Shown here piece by piece: positions 15,978-32,459 of a stretch of DNA of 64,000 bases; positions within the stretch are counted from its first letter, which is position 1; every line of letters begins with the position of its first letter. The DNA is taken from the NCBI RefSeq assembly GCF_000738775.1, contig NZ_JPOC01000022.1, positions 108,798 to 172,797 of the forward strand, written 5' to 3'. Source of the stretch: Prescottella defluvii (lineage in GTDB: Bacteria; Actinomycetota; Actinomycetes; Mycobacteriales; Mycobacteriaceae). Made by a program: the position numbers and the translations under genes. The notes under the pieces were generated by a model, which was given only the letters and a program-made list of their open reading frames with translations, was not told the origin of the DNA and searched no databases.

Positions 15978-18900
15978 TCATCGGACGTCGCCGTCCAGAC
16001 AGGCACCGACGATCGGTCCGATCTCCGCGAGCGCCTCGGGTGTGGTGAGCCTGTTGTGCGTGTGGCTGACCGGATGGACCCGGACAGCACCGGACACGAA
16101 GCGATCCCACGGCGTCCGCGACCGTCCCGATCCGCCGTCGGCCGCGATGTAGACGAGATCGCCGTCGAACTCCGCCGGCCGGTACGCCTGCCCGAGGCCG
16201 ACGGTGTGGACGTAGTCGGCGTACAGCCGGCGCAGATCGTCGGCGGTCAGCGACGCGTACGGTCCGCCGCTCTGCCGCAGCAACTGCTCCGCACGTTCTG
16301 GGGTGAGGTCGCCGTCGGGGCCGTCGATCTCGTCGATTCCCGCAAACTCGGCGAACAGCATGCCCAGGCTCGGGGTACGGGACGCCTCCGGGACCGAGTC
16401 GGCGGTCTGCGTGTCCAGCATGATCAGGGTCCCGACCTCCTCGTCGAGGTCCCGTAGCCGGACGGCCATCGCGTGGGCGATGGCGCCGCCGACCGAGTAC
16501 CCGAGCAGGTGATAGGGACCGTGGGGGCGTACCCGCCGGATCAGCTCGACGTACTCGCGGGCCAGTGCCTCCATCGACCCGGGATCGTGGTCGACGTCGA
16601 CCGTTCCCGGCGACTGCAGGCCGTACACCGGACGCCCGGACGGCACGTACGGCACGAGTCCGGTGTAGCAGCCCACCAGTCCGATCGCCGGATGCACACA
16701 GAACAGCGGGTTGCCCCCGTCGCCGGCCCGCATCCTGAGCAGGTTCCCCGACTGTTCCGGCGTTCCGGCGTCCCCCGCGATACGCCGCGCGATCACGGCG
16801 GGCGTCGGGTCACCGAACACCCACTGCATCGGCAGTGCCCGGTGCAGTCGCGACTGCACCTCGGCGACCACCCGCACGGCGCTGAGGGAGTTGCCCCCGA
16901 GTTCGAAGAAGTTGTCGTCGATGCCGACCCGCTCGGCGCCGAGGACGTCGGCGAACACCTGGCACAGCACGCGCTCGACGTCGGTGCGCGGCGGCCGGTA
17001 CTCCCCCGCCGTGAACGCCGGCGCGGGCAGCGCGGCGCGGTCGAGTTTGCCGTTCGAGTTCATCGGCACCTCGTCGAGGATCGTGATCGCCGACGGCACC
17101 ATGTAGGCCGGCAGCGACGTCGCCGCGAACTTCCGCAGGGCGGCACCGTCGACGGCACCGTCCGAGGTGAGCCGGACGTACGACACCAGCACCGTCTCCC
17201 CGTTGGGCGCGTCGTGGCCGAGGGACGCGGCGAACTCCACCTCCGGGTGCGCGGTGAGGGCGGCGTCGACGTCCCCGATCTCGATGCGCAGTCCACGGAT
17301 CTTGATCTGGAAGTCGGTGCGTCCCACGTACTGCAGGCCCCGCCCGCCGCAACGACGCACGAGGTCACCGGAGCGGTACATCCGAGACCCGTAGTCCCCG
17401 AAGGGATTCGCGACGAATCTCTCCGACGTGAGTGCCGGCTGTCCCCGATAGCCGCGGGCCAGGCACGGGCCGAACAGGTACAGTTCGCCCTCACCGCCGT
17501 CGGGCACCGGGCGCATCCAGCAGTCGAGGACGACGGCGCCGACACCGGAGCGGGGCACCGGTCCGCCCATCGTGATCGGCGTTCCGGGCTCGAGCGGGTC
17601 GCTGGTCGTCACGCACACGGTGCACTCGGTGGGACCGTACGCGTTGAGCAACCGGGTGCGGTGCGCCCACGCGTCCACCAGCTCGGCACCGAACAGTTCG
17701 CCGCCCACCTCGATCACCTCGACGTCGGGCAGCGACCCCGGCTCGATCGTCCCGCACACCGCGGGGGTCACCAGCAGATGCGTGATCCGTTCCTCCCGCG
17801 CGTACGTCGCGAGCTCGGCGCCCGCGTACAGGTCGGGCGGCGCCACCACCAATGTCGCGCCGGCACCGAAGGCGAGCATCAGTTCGAGGATCGAGACATC
17901 GAAACTCGGGGAACACACGTGCAGGACCCGCGAGTCCGGACTCGCGCCTTGATGATCCACCTGCGCGGCGGTCAGGTGCGGCAGCCCGGCGTGCGACACG
18001 ACGACGCCCTTGGGTGCACCGGTGGATCCGGACGTGTAGATCAGGTAGGCGGGGTCGGCCATGCGGACCGGATGGGTGCGCTCGTCGTCGCGGATCGGCA
18101 GCGCCGAGCGACGGTCCAGGTCGAGTCCGTCCAGGGCCACCCAGTCGACGCCGCCCGGAAGCACGTGGTCGCCGGTCGCGGTGAGACCGACCGCGGCGCC
18201 GCAGTCCTCGAGCATGTACTCGATGCGCCCCGCCGGCAGTTTCGGGTCGATCGGCACGGGCGCCGCACCGCTCTTGGCGACCGCCCACGTGGCCGTCACC
18301 GACTCGGCCGAACGCGGCACCGCGACCGGCACGAAGTCCTCCGGGCCGACGCCCCGGTCGACCAGTTCCCGCGCCAGCCGCGTGGAGCGCTCGTCGAGTT
18401 CACGATAGGTGGTGTCGGTTCCATTCCAGCGCAACGCGATCGCATCGGGATCGCGGGAGGCGGCATCCGCGAGGATCTGCGGCCAGGTCCGCGGCGGCAC
18501 CGACGCCGCCTCCGCGACGTCGACGAGTTCCGCGCGGCGGGCACCGCCGAGCAGATCGATCCGTCCCACCGGGGTGTCGGGGCGGTGCGCCACGGTCTCG
18601 ACGACGCGCCGCAGTCGCTGCGCGAGATCCTCGACGTCGGCCGGATCGAGTGCGTCCGGCGAGTACCGCAGCCGCATCCGCAACCGCGTGTCCTCGAACG
18701 CCATCAGCGACAGCGGATAGTGCGTCGAATCATTGCCGACGACGCCGGTCACCCGCAGTCCGGTGCGGTCGGTGAGCCGGTCGAGTGCACCGGGGTCCAT
18801 CGGATACGACTCGAACACCATCGCGGTGTCGAACAGTCCACCGAACCCGGCCGCCTGCTGGATCGCGGTGAGCCCGAAGTGCTCGTGCGCCATCAGTGCG

Positions 18901-32459: not shown

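Follow-up and report, generated by a model that had tools for sequence, protein, structure and literature searches.

The locus examined here raises the question of what a single, very large non-ribosomal peptide synthetase (NRPS) gene of Prescottella defluvii would make, and how its repeated modules came together. The gene was analyzed within a window of 64 kb, the whole stretch of DNA under study, drawn from a source genome of 5.13 Mb in 265 contigs. It was found to be a single open reading frame with an ATG start (Table 1); the database version of the protein (P0001) is 5461 aa in length, with its start 32 residues further in. Pfam searches of the reading frame detected Condensation, AMP-binding, AMP-binding_C and PP-binding domains with a Thioesterase at the C-terminal end. 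Together with domain models built from the gene itself, these searches gave the order C-A-T-E-C-A-T-C-A-T-E-C-A-T-TE, with four condensation (C), four adenylation (A), four carrier (T) and two epimerisation (E) domains and one thioesterase (TE). All six HHxxxDG motifs were intact, as were the GYSVGG motif of the thioesterase and all four carrier motifs, the latter of the form GGDSI ahead of the E domains and GGNSL elsewhere. An initial annotation of this DNA had described four complete modules and a thioesterase in one gene, with E domains only in modules 1 and 3, and this description was confirmed by the reading frame, Pfam, domain models and motifs. Copies of the A10 lysine motif pattern were fewer than the A domains in 7 of 13 family genes, a shortfall we take as a limit of the pattern, since the aligned tenth code position was Lys in every A domain.

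Table 1. Domains of the NRPS gene and its downstream neighbour, in window coordinates.
Feature	Position	Strand	Basis or remark
Tetramodular NRPS gene, 5493 aa	15978..32459	-	ORF, Pfam, domain models
C1, starter-type condensation domain	31050..32372	-	C tree; nearest solved chains 7c1k, 4jn3
A1, code DFWNFGVVFK here, species-variable at positions 278/299	29490..31022	-	pocket code
T1, GGDSI type	29235..29453	-	domain model, carrier motif
E1 epimerisation domain	27780..29207	-	domain models, tree
C2, after-E (DCL-type) condensation domain	26370..27707	-	C tree
A2, code DAFFAAAIMK	24810..26369	-	pocket code
T2, GGNSL type	24540..24782	-	domain model, carrier motif
C3, LCL-type condensation domain	23160..24527	-	C tree
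A3, code DVWNFGMVIK; sister of A1	21585..23132	-	trees, pocket code
T3, GGDSI type	21330..21557	-	domain model, carrier motif
E3 epimerisation domain; missing in both trimodular relatives	19890..21317	-	domain models, tree
C4, after-E (DCL-type) condensation domain; not sister of C2	18540..19832	-	C tree, module tree
A4, code DVLLEGAVCK; same in examined orthologues with module 4	17010..18512	-	pocket code
T4, GGNSL type	16785..16997	-	domain model, carrier motif
TE, type I thioesterase with GYSVGG	15981..16742	-	Pfam, motif
VOC-superfamily protein	15492..15875	-	directly downstream of NRPS, same strand

To type the condensation domains, a tree was built of 58 C domains, taken from five family genes and from NRPS genes found on six further contigs of the genome. 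C1 grouped with the first (starter) C domains and was separate from every one of the 32 internal C domains that have no E domain before them. C3 fell among these 32 (30 following a T domain and 2 following a C domain) and is thus of LCL type. C2 and C4 were placed in the clade of C domains that follow an E domain, such that both E domains are followed by a C domain of the DCL clade. The position labels required 3 changes on this tree, compared to a minimum possible of 2 and a mean of 22.8 for shuffled labels; the sole exception was on contig C3, where one gene has its first C domain in the after-E clade. Among solved chains, those closest to C1 were 7c1k/7c1h/7c1p (named just 'Non-ribosomal peptide synthetase modules') and CDA peptide synthetase I (4jn3), followed by ObiF1 and EntF. 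The 7c1k/7c1h/7c1p group is a lipid-loading starter C, and ObiF1 and EntF are linked to dihydroxybenzoyl starters. The starter type that the initial annotation had proposed for C1, to be judged by phylogeny against starter-C and LCL domains, was thus borne out by the tree and the nearest solved structures, and its expectation that the C domains after E domains accept D residues is supported at the sequence level by the after-E type of C2 and C4.

The genes around the NRPS were searched for partners in acylation and export. Among the 20 neighbouring ORFs scanned, no conserved fatty-acid ligase and no exporter were detected. An acyl-CoA-ligase-like gene is located 2.5 kb downstream of the NRPS on the opposite strand (11789-13474, +), but no orthologue of it was found in the flanks (mostly 6 kb) of 13 other genomes, where its best match was an A domain of the NRPS itself in 12 cases (25-28%) and nothing in the 13th. 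Two MbtH genes and two ACPS-family genes reside elsewhere in the genome. The initial annotation, which had seen neither an MbtH gene nor an acyl ligase or exporter next to the NRPS, was thus nearly right: it stood for MbtH and the exporter and failed only for the ligase-like gene, which is not conserved. These surroundings also bear on an alternative in which C1 loads another acyl starter (e.g., an aryl acid) or nothing, so that a non-lipid peptide or siderophore precursor results. The inclusion of ObiF1 and EntF among the solved relatives near C1 is consistent with such a starter, as is a gene without a conserved fatty-acid ligase alongside; however, 7c1k/7c1h/7c1p and CDA peptide synthetase I are the top matches to C1, and aryl-acid genes were not seen by Pfam among the 20 neighbouring ORFs. 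We regard this alternative as unlikely.

Our preferred reading, which we hold to be quite probable on the basis of domain order and phylogeny, is of a single-protein four-module NRPS with a starter-type C1, predicted to place a fatty acyl group on residue 1; the N-acyl tetrapeptide that it releases would have D residues at positions 1 and 3. An acyl-CoA from the primary pool would load C1, a donor suggested by the lack of any conserved acyl ligase close to the gene. E1 and E3 would invert residues 1 and 3, C2 and C4 would take the D-configured donors, and the thioesterase would hydrolyse or cyclise the product.

To assign residues, pocket codes were read at the GrsA positions and compared with 23 reference codes; none of the four codes matched a reference exactly. 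The A1 and A3 codes were closest to threonine (7 of 10 positions), with Gln/Glu next at 6, and both were without His at the ninth position. The best match of A2 was phenylalanine (6 of 10, next 5) and that of A4 was tryptophan (7 of 10), followed by tyrosine (6). The accessible text of PMC12283262 lists DFWNIGMVHK as a threonine code and DVWNIGLIHK as one of the ornithine type; thus, on that text, the DVWN start of A3 is not decisive. None of the four window codes occurred in the literature searched, where, of two reference codes sought alongside them, DFWNIGMVHK occurred in 4 papers and the other in none; partial strings of the window codes were absent from PMC12283262 save for fragments common to other codes. 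When the 16 orthologous proteins were compared, A1 position 278 was Asn in 8 and Gly in 8 and position 299 was Phe, Cys or Leu, with the 278/299 pair requiring 5 changes on the tree of these proteins. Residue 1 may therefore differ between species. The A4 code, on the other hand, was invariant in all 14 of the 16 proteins that have an A4 domain. The threonine-like assignment made earlier for A1 and A3 thus survives as a resemblance that may fall short of a canonical code, given the missing ninth-position His and the change of the A1 code between species. We tentatively predict from these codes that residues 1 and 3 are threonine-like, residue 2 is hydrophobic or aromatic, and residue 4 resembles an aromatic one, the A4 pocket being unusual in carrying Glu at position 299.

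The distribution of the gene was examined by thioesterase search. A relative of the NRPS was found in 14 of 14 genomes of the genus (Rhodococcus equi/Prescottella group); in one (G002, assembly rated 79% complete) the NRPS frame was disrupted, and this genome was excluded from all gene comparisons. When 401 family genomes drawn evenly from a larger group were searched with a cut of E 1e-65, 14 passed, 13 of these from the genus and one from another genus; the latter was the only one of 387 family genomes outside the genus to pass and, at 48% identity, was below the level of the genus genes. The genus genome below the cut, G010, has a thioesterase match split in two. The closest database proteins were from Rhodococcus sp. 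AG1013, Prescottella agglutinans, Rhodococcus hoagii, R. xishaensis, R. spongiicola and Prescottella subtropica, and the best protein outside the genus was Nocardia P0017, with 50% identity over the thioesterase part and a different module order. Through shared sequence, 8 of the 13 other genus genomes could be matched to named proteins of these Rhodococcus and Prescottella kinds. Judged by these searches, the NRPS gene is lineage-wide and no curiosity of the window strain; the term 'orphan' used in the initial annotation is apt as to product but does not hold if a rare gene was meant. The genes of G010 and G012 (L060 and L078) have the most divergent thioesterases in the genus, at 55-56%.

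Module order was checked in the 13 readable genus genes, of which 11 were tetramodular and two, from R. spongiicola (G011) and R. xishaensis (G013), were trimodular. The two short genes have the order C-A-T-E-C-A-T-C-A-T-TE and are without the E-C-A-T leading to and including module 4; in both (L074 and L070, respectively) the thioesterase comes immediately after the module-3 carrier, the join falling within the linker. Their third carrier retains GGDSI, the form found ahead of E domains in all 13 genes, even though the E domain is absent, and the two genes form one clade in a tree of the shared N-terminal part (unrooted, with the midpoint used for drawing only). Based on the retained GGDSI and the single clade in this unrooted tree, the short form reads best as a loss of E-C-A-T and not as ancestral. 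That the three-module form is instead ancestral, with the fourth module gained in the other species, would fit an unrooted tree in which the two short genes make one clade; yet it is at odds with a third carrier that keeps the pre-E motif with no E domain after it and with the presence of this form in only 2 of 13 readable genes, and we judge it quite unlikely. The trimodular line would release a tripeptide with its third residue unepimerised.

The flanks of the gene were compared across the same genomes. A succinate dehydrogenase/fumarate reductase flavoprotein-domain gene and its neighbours were located upstream of the NRPS in 11 of 13 other genomes (the exceptions being G010 and G012), and in 10 of these 11, those with a readable NRPS, the last conserved upstream gene ended about 0.5 to 2 kb ahead of it. 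In the window, genes for metallo-beta-lactamase-fold, TetR, SDR and family-5 solute-binding proteins occupy about 4 kb (32819-37130) between the flavoprotein block and the NRPS. No match to these genes was detected at E 1e-15 in the examined NRPS regions of 13 other genomes, and relatives of the solute-binding protein (76-78%) were located elsewhere in the window genome and in four others; thus, the genes appear to have been inserted in the window strain. They were considered as part of the system and rejected, as they were seen at this position only in the window strain. Of the 14 genomes, 10 have the downstream VOC gene next to the NRPS and one has it unlinked, and the remaining 3 gave no match; the gene is therefore unlikely to be required. 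Its start lies 102 bases past the NRPS stop, a distance of 15 bases in both three-module species. A VOC sequence pattern matched only 3 of 13 regions, with adjacency elsewhere established by separate search. By eye, the VOC protein has an apparent His-His-Glu triad.

The repeated module order had been explained in the initial annotation by duplication of a (C-A-T-E)-(C-A-T) unit. This was examined with quick trees of partial sequence sets, which included 5 of the 13 readable family genes and 9 (wider A and E trees) or 6 (module tree) of 120 homologues listed, from 323 found; contig C29, with three weak Condensation matches and no multi-domain protein, was left out of every tree, and the partial C20n052_A4 was left out of the wider A tree. 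A1 and A3 grouped together, as had been predicted, and were sisters at a starred support of 98, whether analysed by themselves or together with sequences from Nocardia and other Rhodococcus. E1 and E3 grouped weakly (91) in the narrower tree and separated once Nocardia sequences were added, although a single clade was not rejected (AU p = 0.329). When whole A-T-E blocks were compared in a tree with 15 others, those of modules 1 and 3 were sisters (99, likewise starred), and the pair adjoined the A-T-E blocks of two other synthetases of the genome. The A1 domain was 56.6% identical to A3 and 54.2% identical to the best other domain (C8 A5), and E1 and T1 had closer partners in other synthetases than E3 and T3. 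Given that the A1-A3 identity is barely above that of A1 to C8 A5 and that E1 and T1 are closer to domains elsewhere, the A-T-E duplication would be old and could have come via a relative.

By contrast, the C-A-T part of the unit did not behave as a duplicate. A2 and A4 were separate in the A tree, where one clade of the A domains alone was not formally rejected (AU p = 0.114), while a single clade of the module 2 and module 4 C-A-T blocks was rejected (AU p = 0.0023, in a test picked after the single-domain trees had been inspected). The module 2 block grouped with C-A-T modules from two further synthetases in the genome and the module 4 block with Nocardia modules (support of 93 and 89, respectively, both below the starred level). 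Identities were in agreement: A2 was 50.9% identical to A4 compared to 61.9% to the best other domain (an A domain of another synthetase), C2 was 45.6% identical to C4 compared to 55.5% to the after-E C domain of another synthetase, and C1 and C3, which are of different types, shared 31.2%. The A-domain motifs on which the duplication had been based were present but not specific: of the genome's 36 other A domains, 4 carry a slightly loosened form of the A1/A3-type motif and 8 one of the A2/A4-type motif, the latter motif thus being a class feature. Duplication of the whole C-A-T-E-C-A-T unit in tandem, with C1 later swapped for a starter C domain, would account for the repeated module order, the grouping of A1 with A3 and of the A-T-E blocks, and the local motif common to A2 and A4, and finds some room in the A2/A4 test on A domains alone. 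The rejection of a module 2/4 C-A-T clade, the closer relatives of C2 and A2 in other synthetases and the spread of the A2/A4 motif within the genome nevertheless make it very improbable; of the unit as first proposed, only the A-T-E part is retained. We infer instead that the NRPS is a mosaic with one old A-T-E duplication and not a doubled dimodule. Such a mosaic line would carry two copies of an A-T-E block whose like occurs in two further synthetases of the genome, and the C-A-T modules attached to the two copies would differ.

Starter-C lipopeptide synthetases of the surfactin, CDA and rhizomide type are similar to the window NRPS in their starter first C domain, E-coupled DCL domains and terminal type I thioesterase; the window NRPS differs in having four modules in one gene and in being without a conserved adjacent acyl ligase, lipid genes or exporter. 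Mycobacterial glycopeptidolipid synthetases also have four modules and form an acylated tetrapeptide with D residues, but are encoded by two genes and have a reduced C-terminal residue, unlike the single window gene.

Several published surveys bear on the identity of the gene. As far as the accessible parts of these reports show, R. equi 103S has 11 large NRPSs, three of these for siderophores (Letek et al. 2010, PMC2947987), and most Rhodococcus NRPSs have starter C domains (Ceniceros et al. 2017, PMC5550956). The accessible part of the latter study lists 71 NRPS families with no known product and two families specific to R. equi, the orphan families NRPS-29 and NRPS-30, which are, like the window NRPS, limited to the R. 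equi group. Within what that text offers, the window NRPS may be one of these two. The same text describes the IupU or humimycin-type synthetase of R. equi, of the same organism group and with a starter C domain, as a putative lipopeptide synthetase with humimycin A given as product, and it warns that predicted serine/threonine-rich products may be unreliable. In the portion available of Doroghazi and Metcalf 2013 (PMC3848822), no NRPS cluster was conserved among four rhodococci, which fits an NRPS gene restricted to one lineage. The accessible portions of PMC11433410, PMC11705897 and PMC10972888 gave no product for the gene, and none was reported for it or an orthologue in the literature searched (subscription papers being mostly outside its scope); a known product from an orthologue, which would have spoken against the initial annotation, was thus not encountered there.

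A broader reading, on which we are evenly divided, is that this NRPS is the signature acyl-peptide synthetase of the Prescottella/R. equi lineage, kept by descent and mostly just behind the succinate-dehydrogenase-type block. With its A-T-E block doubled onto two unlike C-A-T modules, its first pocket toggling between species and its clean loss of module 4, which leaves an epimerase-type carrier feeding the thioesterase, it would represent a natural engineering experiment. A synthetase present in every genus genome searched, yet with no known product, is well suited to learning what purpose a peptide serves in the genus. In the shortened genes one sees that modules can be dropped in evolution just past the module 3 carrier, in the linker ahead of the thioesterase, and this junction and the mixing of A-T-E with C-A-T bear on where such enzymes can be recombined.

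Additional features were observed in the window and the remainder of the genome. No RNA families or tRNAs were found within the window. A Mut7-C RNase with a ubiquitin-like domain is encoded at 14037-15491 on the minus strand, its frame including about 200 stop-free residues beyond the conserved part that have no Pfam match, and an ISL3-family transposase from a plasmid of Rhodococcus sp. RDE2 matches positions 2645-3097 at 87% identity. Other large synthetases were located on contigs C20, C8, C21, C14 and C3, including three neighbouring synthetase genes on C20 and single genes coding for 8953, 8214 and 5499 residues; immediately upstream of the synthetase on C8 is an MbtH gene.
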